From: Rhodanobacter thiooxydans
Lineage (GTDB): Bacteria > Pseudomonadota > Gammaproteobacteria > Xanthomonadales > Rhodanobacteraceae
Reading direction: 5' to 3'
Assembly: GCF_030291135.1 (NCBI RefSeq)
Contig: NZ_CP127409.1
Location: forward strand, 3,224,001 to 3,288,000
Length of the DNA: 64,000 nt
Shown: in pieces, positions 47,145 to 61,282 of the stretch
How the letters are laid out: every line of letters starts with the position of its first letter
Numbering within the stretch: the stretch's first letter is position 1
Program-made: the position numbers and the translations under genes
Notes under the pieces: generated by a model
Databases searched by the model: none
What the model was told of the DNA's origin: nothing
What the model saw: the letters and a program-made list of their open reading frames with translations, nothing else

Positions 47145-48077
<933 letters not shown>

Positions 48078-48146: not shown

Positions 48147-48851
48147 TCAGCTGATCCGCGCCACCATCCGCCGATGCCCGATCAGCTGCGCCCAGCGCAG
48201 GCCCAGGTCGATCCACATCAGGTAACTGGCCTCGAGCAGCAACAGGCCGAGGTAGCGGCCCTGCCGCGGCAACGCCGGCTCGGCGGCGACCGGGGTACCG
48301 TCGAAACCGAGCCGACGCGCCAGCAGCAGGCAGCGCGCCAGGTGATAGCGGCTGGTCACCAGCGCCACCGGCGGCAGCCCGGCATCGCCGGCCTCGGTCA
48401 GCAGCAGGCGGCGCGCGTGGCGCAGGTTCTCCAGCGAGTCGACCGACTCCTGTTCCAGCTCCACCTGCACCTCGCCGGGCAGTCCGTGCAACCGCAGCCA
48501 GGCATGGCCGGCAGCGGCTTCGCTGCACTGGCCGCCGCTGCAGCCGCCGAGCAGCAGCAGGTGGCCGGTCTGTCGCTGTTCGGCCAGTGTCAGTGCACGG
48601 CGCAGGCGCTGCTGGTAGTCGTGCTCGGGCGCATCGCGCACGAGCCGGCGGCCGAACACCAGCGTCACCATCCGCCGCGGCGGCGCCAGCGGGCTGCGCA
48701 GGGCGATGCGGCAGACGTGGATCAGGTAACCCAGCCAGACCAGGCCCGCACTGAGCACCAGCGCCAGCATGGTCACCAGCGCGGCTTGCTGCACGTCGCG
48801 GTCACGCAGGTAGCGCCAGGGGTTGCGTGGTGGAGACGGATTCGGCAACAC
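48147..48851 (-). CDS. YdcF/DUF218-like membrane protein
   Basis: A protein of about 234 residues with an N-terminal TM helix (LVTMLALVLSAGLVWLGYLI) followed by a DUF218 domain: VFGRRLVRD, LLLLGGCSGGQCSEA and VTSRYHLARCLLLA. YdcF-like proteins are linked to envelope or SAM-binding roles, but no precise function is established. The start is uncertain: GTG 48851 is chosen because earlier codons would overlap the divergent ketosynthase gene and are Arg/Ala-rich. Its location next to the pigment cluster may be incidental. Confidence 0.75.
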   Translation of the reverse strand: MLPNPSPPRNPWRYLRDRDVQQAALVTMLALVLSAGLVWLGYLIHVCRIALRSPLAPPRRMVTLVFGRRLVRDAPEHDYQQRLRRALTLAEQRQTGHLLLLGGCSGGQCSEAAAGHAWLRLHGLPGEVQVELEQESVDSLENLRHARRLLLTEAGDAGLPPVALVTSRYHLARCLLLARRLGFDGTPVAAEPALPRQGRYLGLLLLEASYLMWIDLGLRWAQLIGHRRMVARIS

Positions 48852-48973
48852 GGGGAAGTGCGGAGCGGGGATGCGCCAGCATAGCCGCAGCGCGCTGCCC
48901 GCGCCCGTTCGGTGGCTGAACGCCCGCCCCGCGCAGGCTAGGCATCCGCGGGGGTGCCGGCTACGCTTTCCTG

Positions 48974-50179
48974 ATGCCTTCCCCGATGCCACCCCTCGCG
49001 ATCACCGCGTACACCGCCACGTCCGCCATGGGCAGCGGCCTCGCCGCACAGCGCGACGCGCTCGAACACGCCCGCAGTGGCCTGCGCCCGAACGACATCA
49101 GCAGCGCGCCGCTGGCGTGCTGGATCGGCCGCGTCGATGGCGTGGAGGACACCGCCCTGCCCGCCGCGCTCGCCGCCTGGGATTGCCGCAACAACCGGCT
49201 GGCCTGGCTGGGCCTGAACCAGGACGGCTTCCTCGAACGCGCTCGCGCTGCGCGCACGCGCTACGGTGCCACCCGCGTGGCGCTGCTGCTGGGCACCTCC
49301 ACCGCCAGCATCGGCGCCACCGAGGAAGCCTATCGCCGGCTCGATGCCGACGGCGGCTTCGCCGATGACATGCTGCGCCCGGCGATCCACGCGCCGCACT
49401 CGCTGGTCGCCTTCGTCGCCGCCGCGCTGGCGCTGGAAGGGCCGTGCCTGACCATCTCCACCGCCTGCTCGTCCAGCGCCAAGGTGTTCGCCAGCGCCGA
49501 GCGGATGATCCGGCTCGGCCTGGTCGATGCGGCGGTGGTCGGCGGCGTGGACACTTTGTGCGACAGCGTGCTGTTCGGCTTCAACGCGCTGGAGCTGGTG
49601 TCGCCCGAACCGTGCCGCCCGTTCGACGCCGCGCGCAACGGCATCTCGATCGGCGAGGCCGCCGGCTTCGCCCTGCTGGAGCGCGCCGACATGGCGCCCG
49701 ACGCGCCACGGCTGCTCGGCTACGGCGAGGCCAGCGACGCGCACCACATGTCCACCCCGCATCCAGACGGCCTCGGCGCCGAGCTGGCGTTGAACGACGC
49801 GCTGGCGCGCGCCGGTCTCGACGCCGCCCGCGTCGACTACATCAACCTGCACGGCACCGCCAGCCAGAAGAACGACGAGGTCGAGGCGGCGCTGGTCGGC
49901 CGCGTCTTTCCGGCCCGCACGCGGGCCAGCTCGACCAAGGGCTACACCGGCCACACGCTGGGCGCGGCCGGCATCGTCGAGGCGACCATCGCGCTGCAGG
50001 CGATCGAACACGGCCTGGTGCCCGGCAACCTCGGCGGCGACACGCCCGATCCGATCTGCGGCGCGCACTTCGCCTGGCGCAACGAACGCCGGCGCGTCGA
50101 CGTGGCGCTCAGCAACTCGTTCGGCTTCGGCGGCAACAACGCCTGCCTGGCGTTCGCCCGCGCGGGATTCGCCGCATGA
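48974..50179 (+). CDS. Beta-ketoacyl-ACP synthase of the aryl-polyene/xanthomonadin cluster
   Basis: A 401-residue ketosynthase (FabB/ApeO-like) with the full catalytic triad: Cys165 in STACSSS, His293 in HGTASQKND and His327 in GHTLGAAG. It condenses malonyl units onto the growing polyene chain on the ACP. The downstream gene is its chain-length-factor partner, overlapping by ATGA. Starts at 48974 or 48986 are possible and neither has a strong ribosome site. It is transcribed opposite to the rest of the cluster. Confidence 0.93.
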   Translation: MPSPMPPLAITAYTATSAMGSGLAAQRDALEHARSGLRPNDISSAPLACWIGRVDGVEDTALPAALAAWDCRNNRLAWLGLNQDGFLERARAARTRYGATRVALLLGTSTASIGATEEAYRRLDADGGFADDMLRPAIHAPHSLVAFVAAALALEGPCLTISTACSSSAKVFASAERMIRLGLVDAAVVGGVDTLCDSVLFGFNALELVSPEPCRPFDAARNGISIGEAAGFALLERADMAPDAPRLLGYGEASDAHHMSTPHPDGLGAELALNDALARAGLDAARVDYINLHGTASQKNDEVEAALVGRVFPARTRASSTKGYTGHTLGAAGIVEATIALQAIEHGLVPGNLGGDTPDPICGAHFAWRNERRRVDVALSNSFGFGGNNACLAFARAGFAA

Positions 50180-50973
50180 GCGCACTGCGCGTCCACGTCG
50201 AGGGCGTCGGCCTGTGGTCGCCGCTGCTGGCCGACTTCGCCGCGCTGCGAAGCCTGCTTGCCGGCACCACGCCGGGGCCGCCGGCAACGCGGCCCGCCGC
50301 CGCCACACTGCCGCCGAACGAGCGCCGCCGCGCGCCGGAAAGCGTGCTGCTGGCGATCGAGGCGGCTGGCCAGGCGTTGGCGATGAGCGGCCGCGACGCC
50401 GCCACGCTGGCCTGCGTGTTCGCCTCCGCGCACGGCGACCAGGCGATCACCGACTACATGTGCGCCACCCTGGCGCAGGCGCCGACCGAGCTGTCGCCAA
50501 CCCGCTTCCACAATTCGGTGCACAACGCCGCGGTCGGCTACTGGACCATCGCCACCGGCTGCCATGCGCCGTCCATCGCGGTCTGCGCCCAGCGTGAGAG
50601 CTTCGGTGCCGGCCTGCTGGAGGCGGCCGGCCAGGTGCTGGCCGAACAGCGCCCGGTGCTGCTGGTGTGCAGCGACACCGCCGGCAGTGGCCCGCTGGAC
50701 GAAGTCACCGGCTGCCGCCAGCCCTTCGGCTGCGCGCTGGTGCTGGCGCCGCAGGCCGGCGCCGCCACGCTGGCCCGGCTCGACCTCGACCTGCAGCCGC
50801 GCGCGGCGACCGACGCGCCGCTGCCCGAGCCACTGGCCGGCTGGCGCGCGGGCAACCCGTCGGCGTCGAGCCTGCCGTTGCTGGCCCTGCTCGCCACCGG
50901 CCGTGGCGGCCACTGCCAACTGGCCGCCGCCGCTACACTGGCGCTGCACATCGACATGGAGTCCGTCGCTTGA
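50176..50973 (+). CDS. Chain-length factor, ketosynthase-like
   Basis: A 265-residue protein of the small ketoacyl-synthase-like family (PF13723) that pairs with a full ketosynthase in aryl-polyene clusters. It resembles half a ketosynthase (FASAHGDQAITDYMCATL, RFHNSVHNAAVGYW) and has no STACSS-type nucleophile, so it should not condense by itself. ATG 50176 overlaps the ketosynthase stop (ATGA), and its stop overlaps the glycosyltransferase TTG start, so the three are translationally coupled. Confidence 0.9.
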   Translation: MSALRVHVEGVGLWSPLLADFAALRSLLAGTTPGPPATRPAAATLPPNERRRAPESVLLAIEAAGQALAMSGRDAATLACVFASAHGDQAITDYMCATLAQAPTELSPTRFHNSVHNAAVGYWTIATGCHAPSIAVCAQRESFGAGLLEAAGQVLAEQRPVLLVCSDTAGSGPLDEVTGCRQPFGCALVLAPQAGAATLARLDLDLQPRAATDAPLPEPLAGWRAGNPSASSLPLLALLATGRGGHCQLAAAATLALHIDMESVA

Positions 50974-51725
50974 ACATCCCCGCTGCACGCTGGTGCGTGC
51001 TGATTCCCTGCCTCAACGAGGAAGCCGCGATCCGGTCCGTGCTCGAATCCGTGCTGGCGCTGGGCGCGCCGGTGATCGTGATCGACGACGGCTCGGACGA
51101 CCGCACGCCCGAGATCGTCGCCGCCCTGCCGGTGACCCTGCTGCGCCACGACACGCGCCGCGGCAAGGGCGAGGCATTGCGCCACGGCTTTCGCGAAGCG
51201 CTGCGGCAGGGCTACGACGCGGTGCTGACCATGGACGGCGACGGCCAGCACCTGGCCGCCGACATCCCGCACATCGTGGCCGCCGCGCAACGCTACCCGG
51301 GGCACATCGTGATCGGCGCGCGCCTGCTCGACCGCGAGCAGCAGCCGAAGGGCCGCCGCCGCGCCAACGCGGTGGCCGACTGGGGCATCTCGTGGGCCTG
51401 CGCACAGCCGGTGGCCGACACCCAGAGCGGGCAGCGCTGGTACCCGCGCGCGGCGCTGGCACTGGTCGACCTGCCGGCGGAGAACTTCGTGTTCGAGGCG
51501 GCGATCCTGATCGCCGCCTCGCGCGAGAAGCAGCTCGGCGTGGTCTCGGTGCCGATCGCCTCGCGCTATCACGGTGCGTTCCGTCCCAGTCACCTCAAGC
51601 CGGTGCGCGACGTCACCCGCATCACCACCTACACCATCGGCCGGGTAGTCCATTACGGCCACGTGATCCGCAGCTATCGTCGCTCGCGCGGCGTGCCGCT
51701 CGTGGTCGACGGGCCCGCCGGCTGA
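50970..51725 (+). CDS. Family 2 glycosyltransferase
   Basis: A 251-residue GT2 enzyme. It opens with a polyprenyl-GT-like WCVLIPCLNEEAAI, VIDDGSDD and MDGDGQH (metal-binding DxD). In aryl-polyene loci such enzymes may attach the sugar or head group to the polyene lipid; the acceptor here is unproven. The only sensible start is TTG at 50970, which shares a TTGA with the previous stop and has GGAG eight bases upstream. A hairpin spans its stop codon. Confidence 0.85.
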   Translation: MNIPAARWCVLIPCLNEEAAIRSVLESVLALGAPVIVIDDGSDDRTPEIVAALPVTLLRHDTRRGKGEALRHGFREALRQGYDAVLTMDGDGQHLAADIPHIVAAAQRYPGHIVIGARLLDREQQPKGRRRANAVADWGISWACAQPVADTQSGQRWYPRAALALVDLPAENFVFEAAILIAASREKQLGVVSVPIASRYHGAFRPSHLKPVRDVTRITTYTIGRVVHYGHVIRSYRRSRGVPLVVDGPAG

Positions 51726-51736
51726 TCCGGCGGGCC
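51712..51736 (+). terminator. Hairpin whose loop contains the glycosyltransferase stop codon
   Basis: GGCCCGCCGG (51712-51721), loop CTGAT holding the TGA at 51723-51725, and CCGGCGGGCC (51727-51736) form a perfect 10-bp stem between two convergent genes. No T tract follows. It may be a compact bidirectional terminator. Confidence 0.55.
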
Positions 51737-51742
51737 GAACGA

Positions 51743-52273
51743 TTACTCCAGGTCGCCGAGCATGCTGTCCTTGCCGGGCTGGGCCAGCCAGCCGGCAATG
51801 TCTTCACCGAGCGCCCTGACGGTGCGCCCGAGCACCGAGCAGTTGCCCTTGAAGCCGCCGAACGCGCCGCCCATCGAATTGCGCCGCCCGATGAAATTGC
51901 CCACCTCGGCGCCGTCTTGGTAGAGCCGGCCCTTCACCGTGGTGTGGGTATGGTGGCCGATGAACGCGTTGCCGTCGGCCACCGAGTCGGTGATCTCCAC
52001 TACCAGCGCGCGGCCCGTCGAACCGGCGCTGGCCTGCGCCACCTGCGTCACCGTCACGCCCTTCTCCTGCCCGTACTTCTTGATGAAGCCGGACAGCTTC
52101 TCACCGAGCTGGCACTCACGCTTGACCGCACCGGCGATCACCGCATCCTGCGCGAAAGGAACCACCGCCGGCACGCTCACCGCGGCTGGCATCGCCGCGT
52201 TGTTGTCGGCGGCATGGGCAACGGAAAACACGCCGCACAACAAAGCGGCGGAAACAAGAACAGTCTTGCGCAT
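51743..52273 (-). CDS. Exported protein of unknown function
   Basis: A 176-residue protein with a Sec signal (MRKTVLVSAALLCGVFSVAHA, then D) and a mature domain of about 150 residues with a GHHTHTTVKGRLY strand, two cysteines (EC and NC) and GRTVRALGEDIAGWL near the end, which suggests a DUF4410-like lipid- or polymer-associated protein. I do not recognise it with confidence. GGAGG lies eight bases before ATG 52273. It sits inside the pigment cluster, on the strand of the export genes, 62 bp after fabG. Confidence 0.8.
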   Translation of the reverse strand: MRKTVLVSAALLCGVFSVAHAADNNAAMPAAVSVPAVVPFAQDAVIAGAVKRECQLGEKLSGFIKKYGQEKGVTVTQVAQASAGSTGRALVVEITDSVADGNAFIGHHTHTTVKGRLYQDGAEVGNFIGRRNSMGGAFGGFKGNCSVLGRTVRALGEDIAGWLAQPGKDSMLGDLE

Positions 52274-52335
52274 CGAACATCCTCCATGATGGAGCCCCCT
52301 GGCTCCGTCCGCGCAGTATGCCGGCTCGCCGCCGC

Positions 52336-53073
52336 TCAGCCCATGCCGCCGTTGACGCCGATTAGCTGGCCGTTGATGTAGCCGGCCGCGTCCGAGCACA
52401 GGAAGGCGACCAGCGCGGCGACTTCCTCCGGCTTGCCGGCGCGCTGCGCGGGCACCAGTTCGCGGATGCGTTCGGGTGGGAAGGCCGCCTCGGCCATGCG
52501 CCCTTCGATCACGCCGGGCGCGACCACGTTGACGGTGACGCCGCGCGAGGCCATCTCGCGTGCCAGCGACTTGCTGGCGCCCACCAGCGCGGCCTTCGCC
52601 GCCGCGTAGTTGGTCTGGCCGCGGTTGCCCAGCTGCGCCGCCGCCGAGCCGATCGAGACGATGCGGCCGAAGCGCGCGCGTGCCATCGGCAGCAGCAGCG
52701 GCTGGGTGACGTGAAAGAAGCCGTGCAGCGAGACGTCGATCACCCGGCGCCACTGCGCGTCGCTCATGCCGGCCATCGGCGCGTCGTCGTGGATGCCGGC
52801 GTTGTTGACCAGCGCGTGGATCGGCCCTTCGCTTAGCAGCACGTCGAGCGCCGCGCGGGTCACCTCCGCGTCGGTGACGTTGAAGGCGACCGCCTGCGCG
52901 CGGCCGCCGCCGGCGACGATCGCCGCCGCGGCTTCCTCCGCCCGGGTCAGGCTGTGGTGGCCGTGCACGATCACCTGCCAGCCGGCCGCGGCGAGCGCGT
53001 GGCAGATCGCGCCGCCGAGTTCGCCGCTGCCGCCGGTGACCAGGGCGCGACGTGAGGTGGGAATCGAGGACAT
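52336..53073 (-). CDS. FabG-like 3-ketoacyl-ACP reductase of the polyene cluster
   Basis: A 245-residue short-chain dehydrogenase/reductase. Catalytic Ser, Tyr and Lys are in GSAAAQLGNRGQTNYAAAKAAL, with NNAG intact. The nucleotide motif reads TGGSGELG, so the central Gly of TGxxxGxG is Glu. It should reduce the 3-keto intermediate on ACP with NADPH. In aryl-polyene loci this is the ApeQ role. It follows the dehydratase gene by 16 bp. Confidence 0.92.
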   Translation of the reverse strand: MSSIPTSRRALVTGGSGELGGAICHALAAAGWQVIVHGHHSLTRAEEAAAAIVAGGGRAQAVAFNVTDAEVTRAALDVLLSEGPIHALVNNAGIHDDAPMAGMSDAQWRRVIDVSLHGFFHVTQPLLLPMARARFGRIVSIGSAAAQLGNRGQTNYAAAKAALVGASKSLAREMASRGVTVNVVAPGVIEGRMAEAAFPPERIRELVPAQRAGKPEEVAALVAFLCSDAAGYINGQLIGVNGGMG

Positions 53074-53089
53074 GACGGGCGCCTCAGGC

Positions 53090-53518
53090 TTAGGGATGGA
53101 TCACCGCCGCCCGCCCGCTGGCAAGCAGGCGGCCACGATGTTCGACGCGGAACGCGTATTGTGCGCCACCCGCGGCGGCGTAGAGACATTCGGCATGGAC
53201 GTCCAGATGGCCATCGAGCCGATCGACATATTCTTCGTGCAACTGCACCTCGCGCAGGCTGACCAGCCGACCGGGGCGTGCTCCGACGCTGCCATGCGCG
53301 CGCGCCAGCAGCGCACCGTGCACCGCCATCGCCTGCGCGCCGTATTCGGCCAGGTGCACCGCGTGCAGGCCGTGTTCGCCGCGCAGCGGGTTGTCCGCGC
53401 GCGCGTGACTGGCGCTGGTGGCGTGGATCGTGCGCTCGTCCCAGGCCAGCACTGCATCGAGCAGGCACATCGTGCCCGCGTGCGGGATCAGCTGCGCCCA
53501 GTCAGTCTTGTCGAGCAT
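53090..53518 (-). CDS. 3-hydroxyacyl-ACP dehydratase (ApeP-like hotdog)
   Basis: A 142-residue hotdog-fold protein that starts WAQLIPHAGTMCLLDAV, the PHxGxMxLLD signature of ApeP/FabA-like dehydratases. It dehydrates the 3-hydroxy intermediate to the trans-enoyl ACP that builds the conjugated polyene. ATG 53518 overlaps the end of the MMPL gene by 17 bp. Confidence 0.9.
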   Translation of the reverse strand: MLDKTDWAQLIPHAGTMCLLDAVLAWDERTIHATSASHARADNPLRGEHGLHAVHLAEYGAQAMAVHGALLARAHGSVGARPGRLVSLREVQLHEEYVDRLDGHLDVHAECLYAAAGGAQYAFRVEHRGRLLASGRAAVIHP

Positions 53519-55820
53519 GCGGCGCCATCAGGATCGACAGGCAGAAGTGGAAGGCCACGCCCAGGCTCACGGTGAGCCCGATCGCGCGCAGCACCGGGAT
53601 CGTCGCCCACGCCAGCATGCCGAACACCAGCAGCGCGGACAGCACGCAGACGATCGTGGCGTGCAGCGTGCGCCGCTGCTCGGCCGCGTCGCCGGTGTCG
53701 CGCTCAAAGAACAGCGCGTAGTGCAGGCCCAGTCCGCCGGCGAGGATCAGCGCGACCAGGTGGAACAGCGAGATCTCGACGCCAGCCACGCGCTCCACCG
53801 CCAGCACCAGGAAGGTGGCCAGGGTCATCGGCGCCAGCACGTGCCACGCGCGGCGCAGGCTGCGCAGCGCCAGTGCGATGGTCAGCACCAGCAGCACCGC
53901 GGCCGCCGCGAGCGCCTGCAGGATGCGCGTGCGGTAGTCGACCACCAGCGATTCGGAGGCGGCCTTCAGGTCGAGCAGGCGCACCGCGCCATACGTGCCT
54001 GCGCCCAGCGCCTGCAGCGCGGCCACGTCGTGCACGCCGCTGACCGTGCCCAGGCCCAGCCAGTGGCCATCGCGCTCGACCAGCATCGCGGCGAGGCGCT
54101 GGCCCAGCGGCGTCTGTGCGTAGCGTGCGGGCGTCAGCGGCGGCAAGCCGCGCGCGGTTTGCACATCGTCGACGAACGGCTGGAACAGGTCGGCGCGGAA
54201 CGGCAGGCCCTGCGACGCCTCGTCCAGCGCGTGCTGCAGCGTGGCGCGGTCGGGCAGCTTCGCCTGCCGTTCGCGCTGCACGGCCACGCTGGGCAGATAG
54301 CGCGACGGCAGCTCCAGCGCATCGGCAGCATGCCGCGCCAGCAGCGCATCGACCCGCGGCTGCAGCGTTTCCGACAGCGCCAGCACGCCCTGTGCGCTCG
54401 ACGCCTGCAGCACCAGCAGGTAGCGCACGTCGGGCGCGCCCAGCGCCTCGCGCAGGCGCGCGTCGTGCTGCAGCAGGTCCGGCGGCAGCGGGGTCAGCGC
54501 AGCGAGGTTGTCCTGCCAGAACGGGCCGCGGGCCAGCGCCAGCATCGCCACGATCGCCGCGGCGACCACGACGGGAATCCAGCGCGGCCGCGGCAGGCGA
54601 TCGACGAAGGTGCGCGCCTGCAACAGCCAGCGCATGTCGGCCACGTCGCGCACGCGCCGCGGCAGCAGATGCGGCAGCAGATAGCGCGTGCTGAAGCCGG
54701 CCACCAGCAGGCCGACGATGGTGAACACCGCCAGCTGCTTCAACCCGTTCACGCCGGACGCGTAGAACGCCAGGTAGGCGATGCAGGCCGAGGCGATCGC
54801 GGTCAGCAGCAGCGGCCACAGCGCACGCACGCTGGCCACCGCGTCCTCGCCGGCGCGGCGATGGCTGAGCACGCGGATCGGGTACTCCTGCGCCACCCCG
54901 AGCAGGGTGAAGCCGAACGCCAGGGTGATCCCGTGCACTTCAGGAAACGCGAGCGTCAGCGCGGCGATGCCGGCCAGCGCGGCGCTGGCGATCGGCAGCG
55001 CCGACAGCAGCAGCGAACCGAAGCTGCGGTACGCCAGCAGCAGCAGCGCGATGAAACCGACGGTGGAGATGCGCCCGATCCAGTCGGCCTGGTGCCGCGT
55101 CTGCGCCGCGGCCACCACGCTGAAGTAACCTGGCCCGCTCAGTTCGAGCATCGCGCCGGCGCTGGCCGGCAGCGCGGCGAACGCGTGACGGATGCCGTCG
55201 ATCGCCTGCTGTTGCGCGCCGGGGTCGAAACCGGCGGCGACCGTCTGCACCAGCAGCAGCGCCTCGCCCTGCGGCGAGAACCACACGCCCTCGCGCAGCT
55301 CCGGCGACTTCGCCGGCGCCCAGCGTTCGGCCAGCTTCAGCACCTCCAGCGTGGGGTCGCGCGGCAGCAGTCCCTTGAGCAGGCTGGCGGCGGGCGAAGA
55401 CAGGTCGTCCAGCCGCTGCTGCAGCTGGTCGGCGAGGTACGCCTCGTCCAGTGGTTGCTTATCCAGCGTGGGCGACAGCAGGTAACGGTAGGGCAGCAAG
55501 CTGGCGTCCAGCGCACCGAGATCAAAGTTGCCGTTGAGCACCTGGCTGTAGCGCGGGTCCTTTTTCAGCGCGGCGGCGAGGCCCTGGCTCAGCGCGGCCA
55601 GCCGTTCATCGGACTGGCCATGGATGGAAAGCAGCAGCAAGCGCGAACCCGGCCCTTCGCCGACCTGCTCCATCAGCAGGCGCTGGTCCGGCGTGGTCGG
55701 CGCGGGCATGAAGCTGCGCAGGTCGGTGCTGACGCGCAGCCGCTGGCTGACCATCCAGCCCAGCCCGGCCAGCGCCAGCAGCCAGAGCACCAGCAGCGTC
55801 GCGCGGGCGCCGACGCGCAT
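53502..55820 (-). CDS. MMPL/RND-family exporter of the polyene cluster
   Basis: A 772-residue RND-type membrane protein (PF03176-like) with two halves, each with one TM helix, a large periplasmic loop and a bundle of five TM helices (about 12 in all). The motifs GFTLLGVAQEYPIRVLSHRR in the first half and GGLGLHYALFFER in the second match the exporter of aryl-polyene/xanthomonadin loci, which is thought to move the pigment lipid to the outer membrane. I chose ATG 55820, two bases after the LolA-like stop; a GTG at 55841 is also in frame. Confidence 0.92.
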   Translation of the reverse strand: MRVGARATLLVLWLLALAGLGWMVSQRLRVSTDLRSFMPAPTTPDQRLLMEQVGEGPGSRLLLLSIHGQSDERLAALSQGLAAALKKDPRYSQVLNGNFDLGALDASLLPYRYLLSPTLDKQPLDEAYLADQLQQRLDDLSSPAASLLKGLLPRDPTLEVLKLAERWAPAKSPELREGVWFSPQGEALLLVQTVAAGFDPGAQQQAIDGIRHAFAALPASAGAMLELSGPGYFSVVAAAQTRHQADWIGRISTVGFIALLLLAYRSFGSLLLSALPIASAALAGIAALTLAFPEVHGITLAFGFTLLGVAQEYPIRVLSHRRAGEDAVASVRALWPLLLTAIASACIAYLAFYASGVNGLKQLAVFTIVGLLVAGFSTRYLLPHLLPRRVRDVADMRWLLQARTFVDRLPRPRWIPVVVAAAIVAMLALARGPFWQDNLAALTPLPPDLLQHDARLREALGAPDVRYLLVLQASSAQGVLALSETLQPRVDALLARHAADALELPSRYLPSVAVQRERQAKLPDRATLQHALDEASQGLPFRADLFQPFVDDVQTARGLPPLTPARYAQTPLGQRLAAMLVERDGHWLGLGTVSGVHDVAALQALGAGTYGAVRLLDLKAASESLVVDYRTRILQALAAAAVLLVLTIALALRSLRRAWHVLAPMTLATFLVLAVERVAGVEISLFHLVALILAGGLGLHYALFFERDTGDAAEQRRTLHATIVCVLSALLVFGMLAWATIPVLRAIGLTVSLGVAFHFCLSILMAPHARQD

Positions 55821-55822
55821 GC

Positions 55823-56482
55823 TCAAGGTGCGCCCTGGCACAGCGCCTCAAGCGTCTCGCGGGTGGGTGCGGCCGGCATCTGCGCGGCCAGCGGGCCGAG
55901 CAGGTCGACGGCGAGGTCGCCGTCGGCTTCCTGCAGGTGCATGCAGCGCGAGGCCTTCGCATAGCCGTCGATGCGGATGCTGGCCACGGTCTTCGCCACG
56001 CGGGCATCGCGCGGCACCAGGGTCAGCGTCCACGCGCCGTCGGCGTCGCCGCGCTGGTGGATCTCGAACGCCTGCTGCAGGCGCGCCGCGTCGCCGCTGA
56101 GCAACGCCACGAAGCTGTCCAGCAGCACCTGAAGCTGCGGCGCACGCTTCAGCGAGAAGTGCCGCGCGCTGCGGCCGTCGCGCTGCTGGGTCACTTCGCC
56201 GTCGGCGATGGTGGCAGTTTCCTGTTGCGGATGTTCGACGCGCCGCTGCAGCCGATCGCCGCCCAGCCACGACAATTGGCCGGAAACCACCAGCGGCCGG
56301 TCGAGCACCTGCAGGAAGCGCGCCTCGGCGAATGCGGTATGCGCCGGTGCCGGCTGGCCCAGCGCAGCCACCAGGGTCGATGCCGATGTCGCCGGGGCCG
56401 CTTCAGACGCCGACGTGCTCGCCCACGGCAACAGGCTCAGCAGCAGGCTCGGCAGCCACAGGCGCGTCTTGCCAGAAATCAT
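55823..56482 (-). CDS. LolA-like outer-membrane carrier of the polyene cluster
   Basis: A 219-residue periplasmic protein with a signal peptide (KTRLWLPSLLLSLLPWAST) and a LolA-related fold (RFLQVLDRPLVVSGQLSW, RVEHPQQE). It resembles the LolA-type chaperones found with aryl-polyene exporters and may carry the pigment across the periplasm. ATG 56482 gives the signal peptide but overlaps the acyltransferase gene by 80 bp in another frame, so the real overlap is unusually long; no good ribosome site is seen. Confidence 0.85.
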   Translation of the reverse strand: MISGKTRLWLPSLLLSLLPWASTSASEAAPATSASTLVAALGQPAPAHTAFAEARFLQVLDRPLVVSGQLSWLGGDRLQRRVEHPQQETATIADGEVTQQRDGRSARHFSLKRAPQLQVLLDSFVALLSGDAARLQQAFEIHQRGDADGAWTLTLVPRDARVAKTVASIRIDGYAKASRCMHLQEADGDLAVDLLGPLAAQMPAAPTRETLEALCQGAP

Positions 56483-57365
56483 AGAAATTGAACCAGTTGT
56501 AGGGAGCGACCTGGACGTAGTGTTCCAGCCGTTGCGCGTAGCGGGCAATCAACGCATCCAGCGCCGGACCGCGGTGCTGCCGCGGGATCTGCACCTGGTC
56601 GCTGAACGGCTCGAAGACCAGCTTGTAGCGGTTGCCGCCCAGGTACAGGCCGAAGCACAGTACCACCGGCACCTGCAGCGTATGCGCCAGCAGCCACGGG
56701 CTGATCGGGAACGGCGCCGGCGAGCCGAGGAAGCCGGTGCGCCGCAGCACCTCATGGCCACGGCCGCGATCGGCCAGCATCGCCACCAGCGCGCCGTCAC
56801 GGCAGCCCTCGGCCATCGCCAGTGCGATGGTGGTGCCGTCCTGCGCCGCGTCGATCACGCAGGCGCCGACGTCCGGCGCCAACGCTTCGAGCAGCTCGGT
56901 CATCGCCGGCGTCTTCTGCTTGTCCAGCACCACCCGCAGCGGCATCTGCGGCCGGCGCGCACCGATCGCCCGCAACGCCTCGAAGCTGCCCTGGTGCGAA
57001 CCGAACAGCAACACGCCGCGACCCTGCGCGATGCGCTCGTCCAGCAGGTCCAGGCCTTCGGTCTCGATCCGGAACGGCTTTTCGCCGTGCGCGAGCAGGA
57101 AGATCCGGTCCAGGATCGTCGCAGCGAAGCAGTGGATGTGCTTCAGCACCTGCCACGCCGTGGCCGGCCGGCCGAATACGCGCTGCAGGTACTGCCGCGA
57201 GGCCCGTCGCTCCGGCGCCCGGCGCAGGAAGAAGTACAGCGTGATCGGGTACAGGCACAGCCGGCCCAGGCGGCGCCCGCCGTGCAGTGCAATCGTGCGG
57301 ATCAGCCACAGCGCGAAGCGGCCGCCGCCTTCGGGCCGGCTCTGCCAGTGTCCATGCGTGCTCAT
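56403..57365 (-). CDS. LpxL/HtrB-like acyltransferase of the polyene cluster
   Basis: A 320-residue inner-membrane protein of the lysophospholipid/lipid A acyltransferase family, with HX4E as GSHQGSFE (about 122-129) and a membrane-proximal N-terminal helix. In aryl-polyene clusters it probably transfers the aryl-polyene acyl chain from ACP to a lipid acceptor. The start ATG 57365 overlaps the previous stop as ATGA. The Glu/Ala/Val-rich C-terminus lies under the LolA-like gene's start. Confidence 0.9.
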   Translation of the reverse strand: MSTHGHWQSRPEGGGRFALWLIRTIALHGGRRLGRLCLYPITLYFFLRRAPERRASRQYLQRVFGRPATAWQVLKHIHCFAATILDRIFLLAHGEKPFRIETEGLDLLDERIAQGRGVLLFGSHQGSFEALRAIGARRPQMPLRVVLDKQKTPAMTELLEALAPDVGACVIDAAQDGTTIALAMAEGCRDGALVAMLADRGRGHEVLRRTGFLGSPAPFPISPWLLAHTLQVPVVLCFGLYLGGNRYKLVFEPFSDQVQIPRQHRGPALDALIARYAQRLEHYVQVAPYNWFNFYDFWQDAPVAAEPAAEPVAVGEHVGV

Positions 57366-57661
57366 GTCGCTCCCTCGACCAGGCCGCGTGCCAGCAGCAT
57401 GCCGTCACGCCGGATCTCGAAACGGATGCGCGATCCGTCCGTCGCCGTCAGATGCAGCTGCGCCGTCTCGTCCGGCAGCAGCGGTGCCGCGAATTTCGCT
57501 TCCAGCACGCGGCCCAGTCGCTGGCCGCGCCAGCTGCGCAGGGCCAGCGCCACCTGCTCCAGCAGCAGCACCCCCGGCACCAGCGGCGCGCCGGGAAAGT
57601 GGCCGGGCAAGGCGGGATGCTCCGCGCCGACGCGCAGCGTCTGTTCGAAGCCGGTGCTCAT
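57362..57661 (-). CDS. Second hotdog dehydratase/thioesterase (ApeI-like)
   Basis: A 99-residue hotdog protein with PALPGHFPGAPLVPGVLLLE, the FabZ/ApeI signature with His in GHFPG. With the ApeP-like enzyme it makes the pair of dehydratases seen in aryl-polyene loci. The start ATG 57661 overlaps the COG4648 stop (ATGA), and the stop overlaps the acyltransferase start. Confidence 0.88.
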   Translation of the reverse strand: MSTGFEQTLRVGAEHPALPGHFPGAPLVPGVLLLEQVALALRSWRGQRLGRVLEAKFAAPLLPDETAQLHLTATDGSRIRFEIRRDGMLLARGLVEGAT

Positions 57662-58377
57662 GGCGCCGCCACACGCTTGCCGCGCAGCAATTGCGGCCAG
57701 TGCAACGCCAGCTGCAGCAGCATGTCGTGCAGGCCGGGATGCGGCAGATGACGCAGCCGCCAGCGGCGACAGGCGTATTCCAGCAGGAACGCCGCGCCCA
57801 GCAGCAGGTAACCACCCAGGTGCAACCACGTCGCGGCCCAGCGCTCGGGTACCGACAGCGGCGAGGCCATGCCGGCGCGCGCCAGCAACCCGCTGTGATC
57901 GGCGCACAGCAGCAGCACGGCCAGCAGCAGCGCCTGGCCGCCCAGCAGCAGCGTCCAGAACCAGGTGACCTGGCGCGCATAGGCAGCCACGCCCGGCTGG
58001 CGCAGGCGCTCGGGACCCTCGATGGCAGCGATGAAGCGCTCCACCAGGGGTTCGGCCGTGGCCAGCGTGCGGCCGAACCACACTGCCAGCAGCGCATGGA
58101 TGAGCACCGGCACCGCCTCCAGCAGCAACTCGGCAAAGCCGAAGCGCCAGCTCAGCAACAGGCCAGCCAGCACGCCCGACCACAGCAGCCACGCCGCCGT
58201 GCGGCGCGCCAGCAGCTGCGGCAGCAGCAGCACGGTCAGCAGCAGGGCCAGTGCCAGCAGCGCGAAAAACTGCTGCCCGGTCACCGCGCCGGCGATCGCC
58301 AGCAGCGGATAGGCCGGCAGCAACAACAGGCCGTAGCGCCGCGTGCTGTGGTCGGGTGAAAGTGAAGAGGATGTCAT
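57658..58377 (-). CDS. Polytopic membrane protein COG4648
   Basis: A 239-residue protein with about six TM segments (YGLLLLPAYPLLAIAG, FFALLALALLLTVLLL, AAWLLWSGVLAGLLLS, LLEAVPVLIHALLAVW, FWTLLLGGQALLLAVLL and the later WLHLGGYLLLGAAFLLEY). COG4648 proteins occur almost only in aryl-polyene-type clusters, and their role is unknown. ATG 58377 is 103 bp downstream of the ACP gene. Confidence 0.88.
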   Translation of the reverse strand: MTSSSLSPDHSTRRYGLLLLPAYPLLAIAGAVTGQQFFALLALALLLTVLLLPQLLARRTAAWLLWSGVLAGLLLSWRFGFAELLLEAVPVLIHALLAVWFGRTLATAEPLVERFIAAIEGPERLRQPGVAAYARQVTWFWTLLLGGQALLLAVLLLCADHSGLLARAGMASPLSVPERWAATWLHLGGYLLLGAAFLLEYACRRWRLRHLPHPGLHDMLLQLALHWPQLLRGKRVAAP

Positions 58378-58480
58378 GCCGGGTTCCGCGTCGGCTCCGC
58401 CGGAACGTCGAGCCTGCCACGGGCGCTGGAACGCAGCATGAAGAAAGCGTGGTGAACGCAACCGGGACGCACCGCTGGCG

Positions 58481-58750
58481 TCAGCTGGCGCGGTTCTGCT
58501 CGACATGCGCGGACAGCGTGCGCAGGCAGGTGAAGATCTGCCGGTTGTCCGGGTTGTCCGAGCGCAGCTGGAAGCCGTAGCGTTTGGACACGGCCAGCGC
58601 GATTTCCAGTGCGTCGATCGAATCCAGCCCCAGCTCGCCGCCGAACAGCGGTGCATCGGGGTCGATCTGTTCCGGGGTCACGCTCTCCAGATTCAGGCAT
58701 GCCACGATCAGGGTGGCCAATTCGTGCTGCGCCGCTGTCTGTTCCGCCAT
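58481..58750 (-). CDS. Acyl carrier protein of the polyene cluster
   Basis: An 89-residue ACP. The phosphopantetheine-attachment Ser44 is in LGLDSIDALE, and the helical, acidic composition is typical. It would carry the starter and the growing polyene. It is the first gene of the leftward set. It is the only ACP gene here, whereas many aryl-polyene clusters have two. Confidence 0.93.
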   Translation of the reverse strand: MAEQTAAQHELATLIVACLNLESVTPEQIDPDAPLFGGELGLDSIDALEIALAVSKRYGFQLRSDNPDNRQIFTCLRTLSAHVEQNRAS

Positions 58751-58842
58751 GCTCGGTTCCGTACTCTGGATTCATTGCCTCCCCCCGGTGGCAGTGGGCG
58801 CGGAGTGTAACATAGCGCCCTTGTCGTTCCCGGTTGTACGCC

Positions 58843-59835
58843 ATGATGCAGGGATGTGAAAACCCCCAGATCGACCTGCAGCCGCGTCGCGCGCCGCAGG
58901 TGTCCTACCGCGTCGGCGAGGCCGCCGCGCTGCTGGCCGAACCAGGCACGCTGGCATTGTTCGGCTTCGGCGCCGGCACTCCGGCCAGCACCGACCCGCG
59001 CTGCCTGCAGGTGGCGCTGGAGGCGTTCGATGCGCCCGCTCCGCTGGAGCTGTGGCAAGTCGATGCGCCGGTGAGCTGCGGCCGCGACGGCGCACTGCGC
59101 TGGTCGGCCGGCGGCGGCTGGCTGTTCGTGGCGATCGAGCTGGACGAACGCGAACACGGCGGCCCGACCGCCGCCGCCCGGCTGGCCTACGAGCAGCTGC
59201 ACCGCTTCGTCGCCACGCGCGAGGCGCAACACGTGCTGCGGGTCTGGAATTACCTCGGCGCGATCAACCACGGCGACGGCGACGCCGAGCGCTACAAACA
59301 CTTCTGCGACGGCCGCGCCGCCGGCATGGGCGATTTCTTCGCCGAAGGCTTCCCCGCCGCCACCGCAATCGGCCACCACGGCGACGAACACCGCCTGCAG
59401 GTCTACCTGCTGGCCAGCGACCAGCCCGGCCTGCGGGTGGAAAACCCGCGCCAGGTCAGCGCCTGGTGCTACCCGCGCCAGTACGGCCGCACCCCGCCCA
59501 GCTTCGCCCGCGCGATGAGCCTGCCGGCGCAGGACGTGCTGGCGATCTCCGGCACCGCCGCGGTGGTCGGCCACGCCTCGGCGCACGAGGACGACCTCGA
59601 CGCCCAGCTGGAAGAAACCCTGGTCAACCTCGAGGCGCTGCTGGCCAGCGCCGGCATGGCCGCCGGCTTCGACACCCGCTCGCCGCTGAAGGCCTACGTG
59701 CGCCATGCGGCGGACGCCGCGCGCGTGCGCGACTTCCTGCAGCAGCGCCTGCCCGGCGTGCCGGTGCTGCTGCTGCACGGCGACATCTGCCGCCGCGAAC
59801 TGCTGGTGGAAATCGACGGCTGGCGTTACGCCTGA
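58843..59835 (+). CDS. xanB2: XanB2-type chorismatase (3-/4-hydroxybenzoate synthase)
   Basis: A 330-residue protein of the FkbO/Hyg5/XanB2 chorismatase family (pteridine-dependent-oxygenase-like). Family stretches are AQHVLRVWNYLGAINHGDGD, ERYKHFCDGRAAGM, VSAWCYPRQYGRTPPSFARA and the C-terminal LLHGDICRRELLVEIDG. In Xanthomonas, XanB2 makes 3-hydroxybenzoate for xanthomonadin and 4-hydroxybenzoate for ubiquinone. ATG 58843 (or 58846) is preferred; a TTG at 58834 is in frame. Divergent from the ACP gene, 92 bp apart, it fits the polyene cluster as the starter-supply gene. Confidence 0.92.
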   Translation: MMQGCENPQIDLQPRRAPQVSYRVGEAAALLAEPGTLALFGFGAGTPASTDPRCLQVALEAFDAPAPLELWQVDAPVSCGRDGALRWSAGGGWLFVAIELDEREHGGPTAAARLAYEQLHRFVATREAQHVLRVWNYLGAINHGDGDAERYKHFCDGRAAGMGDFFAEGFPAATAIGHHGDEHRLQVYLLASDQPGLRVENPRQVSAWCYPRQYGRTPPSFARAMSLPAQDVLAISGTAAVVGHASAHEDDLDAQLEETLVNLEALLASAGMAAGFDTRSPLKAYVRHAADAARVRDFLQQRLPGVPVLLLHGDICRRELLVEIDGWRYA

Positions 59836-59850: not shown

Positions 59851-59915
59851 GTGAGACGAGGAGTGGGAAACAAGGGCAAGCACGCCTGCGACTCGTTCCC
59901 CGCTCCGTCACTCAC
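59851..59915. terminator. Imperfect inverted repeat between xanB2 and glmU
   Basis: GTGAG (59851-59855) and CTCAC (59911-59915) bracket a longer imperfect pairing (ACGAGGAGTGGGAAACAAG with the complement of the 59890-59908 stretch) that overlaps the glmU stop. It sits between two convergent genes and probably ends both transcripts. Confidence 0.4.
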
Positions 59916-61282
59916 TGCTGCTTTACCGGCCGCTTCCAGCCCTCGAACGTCTGCTGCTTGCCGCGCGCCACGGTGAGCTCGCCGGCCGGGGCGTCGCGGG
60001 TGATCACCGAGCCGGCGCCGATGGTGGCTTGCGCGCCGATCGTCACCGGGGCGACCAGCGCGCTGTTGGAGCCGATGAAGGCGCCGTCGTCGATGCGCGT
60101 GAGATGCTTGTTCACACCGTCGTAGTTGCAGGTGATGGTGCCGGCACCGATGTTGACGCCGCGGCCCACCACGGTGTCGCCGAGATAAGTGAGGTGGTTG
60201 GCCTTGCTGCCTTCGCCGAGATGCGCCTTCTTGGTTTCCACGAAGTTGCCCACGTGCACGCCGGCGTCGAGCTCGGTGCCAGGGCGCAGCCGCGCGAACG
60301 GGCCGATCGTGCAGGGGCCATGGGTGACCACGCCGTCGAGGTCGCAGTGCGTCAGCACCACCGTGCCGGCGGCCAGCTGCACGTCCTTCAACCGGGTGAA
60401 CGCGCCGATGCGCACGTCGTCGCCGAGCGTCACGCGGCCTTCCAGGATCACGTCGACGTCCAGCTCGACATCGTGCCCCGCCTCGACCGTGCCGCGCACG
60501 TCGATGCGCAGGGGATCGGCCAGCCGCACGCCGTCCCGCATCAGCGCACGTGCCGCACGCTGGCGGTACTCGGCCTCCAGCCCGGCGAGCTGCAGCGCAT
60601 CGTTCGCGCCCGAAGCCTCCACCGGATCGGCGCACTCCACGCTGAGCGCGGGGCGCTTTTCCTCACTCGCCATCGCGAAGATGTCGGTGAGGTAGTACTC
60701 GCCCTGCGCGTTGTCACAGTCGAGTCCGGCGATCCAGACGCGCAGCGCGGCCGCAGACGCCACGAGGATGCCGGTGTTGACCAGGTTGACGGCACGCTGC
60801 TCCTCGTCGGCGTCCTTCTCCTCGATCACCTCCCGCACATGGCCGTTGCCGTCGCACAGCACGCGGCCGTAGCCACGCGGATCGGCCAGGCGCATGGTGA
60901 GCAGGCTGAAGCCTCCCTCCGCCGACGCCAGTTGTTGCAGGGTGTCGACCCGGGTCAGCGGCACGTCGCCGTACAGCACCAGCACGCGTGCGCTGTCGGG
61001 GATCTCGCCCAGCGCCTGCCCCACCGCATGGCCGGTGCCCAGCCGCTCGGCCTGCAGCACCCAGCACAGATCGGTCTGGCCGGCGAACGCGGCCCGTACC
61101 TGGTCGCCGCCGTGGCCATAGACGACATGGATGGCCGCCGGCTGCAGCGCCCGCGCGGTGTCGACCACGTGCGCCAGCAGCGGTCGCCCGGCCAGTGGCA
61201 TCAGCACTTTCGGGCGACTCGATTTCATCCGCGTGCCGGCGCCGGCGGCGAGGATGACGACGTGGAGCGGAGTCTGGTTCAT
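59912..61282 (-). CDS. glmU: GlmU bifunctional GlcNAc-1-P uridyltransferase/acetyltransferase
   Basis: A 456-residue bifunctional enzyme that makes UDP-N-acetylglucosamine for peptidoglycan and LPS. The N-terminal pyrophosphorylase domain has [12 protein letters not shown], and the C-terminal left-handed beta-helix hexapeptide repeats (from about 230) end in the acetyltransferase site ([17 protein letters not shown]). The length is normal. It is transcribed downstream of the small lipoprotein gene (75-bp gap). Confidence 0.97.

Follow-up and report, generated by a model that had tools for sequence, protein, structure and literature searches.

A probable xanthomonadin-type aryl polyene locus in Rhodanobacter thiooxydans with its predicted starter ligase at a second, unlinked site

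How could an aryl polyene locus of Rhodanobacter thiooxydans charge its carrier protein with an aromatic starter when no ligase is encoded beside it? The locus lies between hemF and glmU in a stretch of 64,000 nucleotides (the window; contig NZ_CP127409.1, positions 3,224,001 to 3,288,000). It carries genes for a ketosynthase (KS), a chain length factor (CLF), a GT2 glycosyltransferase, a FabG-type reductase, two dehydratase-like proteins (DH1 and DH2), an MMPL exporter, a LolA-like carrier, an LpxL-like acyltransferase, a COG4648-like protein, one acyl carrier protein (ACP) and a XanB2-type chorismatase. The original prediction, made from the window, had listed these genes, and they were found at or near the positions given there as open frames, most with family support. 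It had also noted the lack of a ligase and a second ACP, and proposed that the starter is loaded by another route, that the ligase is encoded elsewhere or that pigment production has been lost. The second proposal is supported: the starter ligase is encoded away from the cluster, elsewhere on the same chromosome. Very probably, the locus is the main part of an aryl polyene pathway of the xanthomonadin type, with the starter ligase at a second, unlinked locus.

Results and Discussion

Identification of the predicted starter ligase

Profile searches of the window genome, a single contig of 3,516,421 bases, placed AMP-binding domains (PF00501) at six positions, none of them in the window, and carrier protein domains (PF00550) at three, one of them in the window. 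Both absences between hemF and glmU were thereby confirmed. An AMP ligase of the XanA2/ApeH type, 454 amino acids (aa) long, was found at C1:234127-235491, where topA and then tsaC precede it with a gap of about 130 bases between tsaC and the ligase. Its distance from XanB2 is 468 kb round the circular chromosome. It is the single match to the ligase query within its own genome at E<=1e-15 (5/18 candidates scored). An alignment of 15 ligase orthologues, of which the other 14 are 41-79% identical to the window genome's ligase, contains the invariant residues T150 S151 G152, T154 G155, G289, E292 and G442 K443. Identity to the XanB2-adjacent ligases of three genomes of family f2 (L047, L070, L075) is 58-59%, and it is on the XanB2-adjacent ligase of Xanthomonas-type loci, not on the XanA2 and ApeH sequences themselves, that the assignment of orthology rests. 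UbiC (PF04345) has no match in the window genome, and the sole match among 14 control genomes was in E. coli, whose aryl polyene cluster ApeEc is said to derive its 4-hydroxybenzoate from UbiC (PMC8253772).

The order-wide distribution of ligase and KS was analyzed in 299 genomes, with cut-offs of E<1e-60 for the ligase and E<1e-100 for KS. Both genes were present in 141 genomes and neither in 155; the ligase alone occurred in three and KS alone in none. The three ligase-only genomes are G060, G127, where KS is fragmentary at the edge of a contig, and G212, which is 60% complete. All 12 other sampled Rhodanobacter genomes carry ligase, XanB2 and KS. XanB2 itself is spread more widely (246/299 genomes), which is expected because the XanB2-type enzyme is said to supply ubiquinone synthesis too (PMC3949708).

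The ligase locus within and beyond the family

Families and genera were coded, with f1 taken as Rhodanobacteraceae and g1 as Rhodanobacter. Of the 74 ligase-bearing Rhodanobacteraceae genomes, 72 have topA, tsaC and ligase in this order on one strand, with a tsaC-ligase gap of 18-240 bases. The two exceptions are G259, which shows a 20-residue match to the tail of tsaC between topA and the ligase, and G227, in which no tsaC was found. Ligase and XanB2 are both present in 72 genomes of the family, on the same contig in 50 and on different contigs in 22. None of the 50 same-contig pairs lies within 10 kb, the least distance being 13.7 kb and the median 37 kb. Named genomes yielded 562 related loci, and in 57 of the best 80 tsaC precedes the ligase; every locus among the 80 whose title bears a Rhodanobacteraceae genus name belongs to these 57. 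The titles of the remaining 23 give Stenotrophomonas, Lysobacter, Pseudoxanthomonas, Luteimonas, Xanthomonas or Lysobacteraceae; in eight of the 23, XanB2 falls within the fetched stretch. One genome each of families f10, f8 and f11 (L084, L085, L086) holds the ligase inside the cluster near the ACP. As the ligase is in or near the XanB2 cluster in other families, the Rhodanobacteraceae site looks derived, and the position after topA-tsaC seems to result from an old move. A tree of 34 ligases separates Rhodanobacteraceae from f2, while the placement of the f3 and f4 rows and of several long branches is unsure. In the literature searched, the topA-tsaC position of the ligase was not reported in titles or abstract openings. 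Three Pseudoxanthomonas loci (L160, L174, L184) carry two tandem ligase copies near XanB2.

Layout of the cluster among relatives

The original prediction had regarded the layout of the locus as unusual. This view was not supported, as the layout is common across the sampled family. A tblastn map of the cluster region was made for 41 of the 74 ligase-bearing genomes, counting the window genome, and in 30 of them KS, CLF, GT2, ACP and XanB2 stand together as a single block flanked by hemF and glmU. The remaining 11 comprise two genomes with a split cluster (G297, G271), one with the KS arm beyond hemF (G080), one without KS and CLF (G060), two without XanB2 (G236, G261) and five in which a flank or a part falls outside the stretch or contig (G012, G067, G145, G159, G248). 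The full set of 12 cluster genes was recovered in 11 of the 41 mapped genomes, where genes scored as not detected may be diverged. The complete sets include all five mapped Rhodanobacter genomes with unbroken contigs: the window's own, G273, G164, G240 (with inserts) and G125. The opposite orientation of KS, CLF and GT2, also taken as a departure, recurs in the Xanthomonas-like genome G101, where KS-CLF-GT2 converge on the ACP-to-FabG genes as in the window. In the original prediction, close relatives that all keep the layout and make pigment normally would have counted against it. The shared layout was borne out; for pigment, yellow colonies are reported for Luteibacter species with xanthomonadin-like clusters that are predictions, not chemistry (PMC11165876, PMC9965599).

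Comparison with known systems

Among the closest known systems, the xanthomonadin cluster of the Xanthomonas-like genome G101 (L047/L048) shares the succession XanB2, one ACP, COG4648-like protein, DH2, LpxL-like acyltransferase, LolA, MMPL, DH1 and FabG. Its ligase is nearly identical in the tree to that of Xanthomonas sp. F10 (L186), a locus compared as far as DH1 in which the ligase stands beside XanB2. Xanthomonas-type loci have the ligase adjoining XanB2, and the published genes Xcc4015 and Xcc4014 are neighbours by number (PMC3949708), whereas the window locus has no ligase. G101 also differs by a PF04820 halogenase-like gene and, by eye, an acyltransferase-like open reading frame (ORF), both inside its cluster, neither of which is present at the window locus. 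The 17-ORF xanthomonadin-like cluster of Lysobacter enzymogenes, for which pigment production was shown, resembles the window locus in having one ACP, KS with a half-length CLF, two dehydratases (dehydratase-like proteins in the window) and no ligase listed (ORF1-17; PMC3691225). It additionally lists a regulator and further exporters, and the likeness is one of gene lists, not of sequence (PMC3691225).

A split pathway has a precedent in the arcuflavin genes of Azoarcus sp. BH72, which occupy two unlinked arc loci, both required for pigment (PMC3949708). Like the window genome, Azoarcus combines polyene genes at two unlinked loci with one ACP, the XanB2-type ArcB and the ligase ArcT; the split, however, falls elsewhere, and the polyene is joined to a dialkylresorcinol (PMC3949708). 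E. coli ApeEc shares the core steps and transport genes but has 18 genes in one orientation, the linked ligase ApeH and two ACPs (PMC8253772). The window locus has neither the two ACPs nor the linked ligase of the E. coli type, nor the halogenase that a cluster for brominated xanthomonadin would carry. Features of the xanthomonadin type that are present are KS with a half-length CLF, XanB2, one ACP, LolA/MMPL with an LpxL-like acyltransferase and, elsewhere in the genome, the ligase. The expectation that such loci often encode two ACPs was not borne out for the Xanthomonas type. Xanthomonas clusters are described without a second ACP in PMC8253772, ACP queries gave one significant place in 32 kb of G101, and a single ACP is usual for xanthomonadin-type clusters.

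Proposed pathway and its alternatives

In the proposed pathway, XanB2 would convert chorismate to 3-hydroxybenzoate, which the ligase at C1:234127-235491 would adenylate and load onto the single ACP. KS-CLF would extend the chain by malonyl units, and FabG with the two dehydratases would introduce the double bonds. The LpxL-like acyltransferase and GT2 may then attach the chain to a lipid, and MMPL and the LolA-like protein may carry the product to the outer membrane. We infer all enzymatic steps and pigment formation from what is observed, namely gene content, open frames, kept motifs, the close association of ligase with KS across genomes, and the preservation of both loci among the family members sampled.

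The least unlikely alternative, though improbable, is a decayed or decaying cluster in an organism that forms no pigment. Relatives within the family do show losses: KS, CLF, MMPL, LolA, FabG and the COG4648-like gene went undetected at the locus of G060, and both dehydratases are absent in G080, G202, G253, G271 and G281. The window's cluster genes and ligase are nevertheless open frames with 82-95% identity to their G273 orthologues, and KS C165, ACP S44 and the histidines of the dehydratases are conserved, so the loss of pigment production proposed originally finds no support. It is very unlikely that a different AMP-forming enzyme or carrier loads the starter in place of a dedicated ligase, with the topA-linked ligase serving something else. 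The genome does offer five further AMP-binding places, and ArcT of Azoarcus is described as having low substrate specificity in vitro (PMC3949708). Yet not one of the 141 genomes with an above-cut KS lacks the ligase, orthologues in other families adjoin XanB2 or sit within the operon, and the ligase keeps its motifs, which leaves the alternative route without support. Equally unlikely is a second polyene ACP at C1:2337291 (L011:6023-10777): it adjoins a FabF-type ketosynthase, but its remaining neighbours (FemAB/GNAT-like, arginase-like below cut-off, and a DegT aminotransferase) are not polyene genes, and xanthomonadin-type clusters use a single ACP.

Several points weigh against the split xanthomonadin-type pathway preferred here. 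A search of solved structures with the ligase profile returned general adenylating enzymes among the best 60 of 83 matches, and therefore the substrate of the ligase cannot be read from its sequence. Both co-occurrence cut-offs were chosen after gaps in the match lists were seen, and kinship among genomes inflates the counts. In three genomes without an above-cut ligase (G096, G136, G165), a KS homologue with 45-49% identity was found at about 1e-71, so that a looser KS cut-off would give three KS-only genomes. G236 (L062, L063) and G261 (L105) keep KS and ligase while XanB2 is undetected at E<=1e-15, and G060 carries ligase and XanB2 but no KS-CLF. In one f3 genome (L081) the ligase also directly follows topA, so the move may predate the family. 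The Lysobacter cluster includes two ORFs of unknown function, and its ORF10 first matched acyl-CoA synthetases before it was read as LolA-like (PMC3691225). Since no halogenase is present at the locus, the compound made may differ from true xanthomonadin. The role of the ligase and the formation of pigment are predictions.

The puzzle is resolved as an ordinary split pathway with an unlinked ligase, and the lesson is a modest one: reading the cluster alone can falsely suggest a missing step when, in sampled Rhodanobacteraceae, the ligase lies next to topA-tsaC. If this is true, transfer of the cluster from Rhodanobacter, Dyella or Luteibacter to another host would require adding the ligase gene.

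A second exporter in relatives

The cluster MMPL orthologue was not found in 21 of the 74 ligase-bearing Rhodanobacteraceae genomes. A second MMPL (27-33% identity) is encoded elsewhere in all 21 of these versus 8 of the 53 others (Fisher 2.8e-12); G031 (KS and ligase absent, second MMPL present) and G090 (neither) were left out of the count. In a tree-aware test about four changes of exporter state were needed, and the median p of independent pairs was 0.25, not significant. The site of the second exporter was examined in ten genomes, eight of them exporter-less (of the 21). Eight of the ten sites (L190-L194, L196-L198) show a fuller second cluster with GT2, two KS, a PlsC-like acyltransferase, a thioesterase and an ACP, a further ACP being present at seven of them; L189 and L195 have few polyene-type genes beside the exporter. 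Six of the eight examined exporter-less genomes hold the fuller cluster. LolA is likewise missing in all 16 mapped exporter-less genomes, and the five genomes named above without both dehydratases belong to these 16. A DH1 elsewhere in the genome was found at E<=1e-5 in none of G202, G253, G271 and G281, and G080 has a 37% match. Two predicted aryl polyene regions per genome are reported for Luteibacter and Rhodanobacter species (PMC11165876, PMC11596576). Tentatively, the XanB2-linked cluster of Rhodanobacteraceae may lose its exporter and carrier, and sometimes both dehydratases, only where a second, distantly related exporter exists, usually as part of another cluster of the aryl polyene type, as though parts were shared between the two pathways; the window genome would represent the unshared, full state. 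Loss of the reductase was also considered as tracking the second exporter and was rejected, because FabG is also undetected at the locus in G100, G214 and G242, where no second exporter was found at E<=1e-20.

Gene inventory of the locus

The DUF218 gene and the 176-aa ORF are additional to the genes listed in the original prediction (Table 1). The ACP scored 133 bits against NF006617 (cut-off 70). XanB2 exceeds the PF21168 cut-off and stays below that of the curated TIGR04444 (183 vs 325 bits); its best solved relatives are 5ag3/5a3k, of which we take 5ag3 to be XanB2 and, likewise, 6qsp to be ApeO-ApeC. The family PF13723 matched by CLF is one of N-terminal domains. The FabG profile match is clear, whereas DH1 and DH2, with weak profile support, were named from homologues in like positions together with their invariant histidines. 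A glutamine has been reported to be essential in Lysobacter; the invariant columns of a 14-row CLF alignment include no glutamine.

Table 1. Features of the pigment locus and its flanks (window positions)
Feature	Position	Strand	Remarks
hemF	47145-48047	-	flank of cluster
DUF218 (PF02698) protein	48147..48992	-	KS neighbour in many relatives; true start probably within range
KS (ORF17/ApeO type)	48974..50179	+	PF00109/PF02801; C165 in TACSSS; best solved relative 6qsp_A
Half-length CLF (ORF16/ApeC type)	50176..50973	+	PF13723; best solved relative 6qsp_B
GT2 glycosyltransferase	50970..51725	+	PF00535; probable TTG start 50970, overlaps CLF stop
176-aa ORF	51743..52273	-	signal-like start by eye; no Pfam match
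FabG-type ketoreductase	52336..53073	-	PF13561
Dehydratase-like DH1	53090..53518	-	no Pfam match at E<=0.001; H13 invariant, 12 rows
MMPL/RND exporter	53502..55841	-	PF03176
LolA-like carrier	55823..56482	-	LolA_3 PF19574; start chosen by the analyst
LpxL-like acyltransferase	56403..57365	-	PF03279
Dehydratase-like DH2 (FabA/FabZ-like)	57362..57661	-	Pfam matches below cut-off; H21 invariant, 12 rows
COG4648-like protein	57658..58377	-	label from original prediction; no Pfam match
ACP	58481..58750	-	PF00550, NF006617; attachment serine S44 (GLDSIDALE)
XanB2-type chorismatase	58834..59835	+	PF21168; TTG start, or ATG at 58843
glmU	59912-61282	-	flank of cluster

The ORF list and Pfam searches gave no halogenase between hemF and glmU, and the best match in the window genome to a halogenase-like protein of G240 was 30%, at C1:392117. 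The PF04820 halogenase-like gene of G240 lies between GT2 and FabG (L056:6755-8377), and ORFs resembling it by eye occupy the same position in L091, L094, L101 and L103. This slot is filled by the 176-aa ORF in the window (51725-52336) and in G273; homologues of the ORF were seen in G273 (89%) and G012 (50%). A phosphopantetheinyl transferase (PF01648) has a single match in the window genome, a 222-aa frame at L107 (G000:C1:11470-11778).

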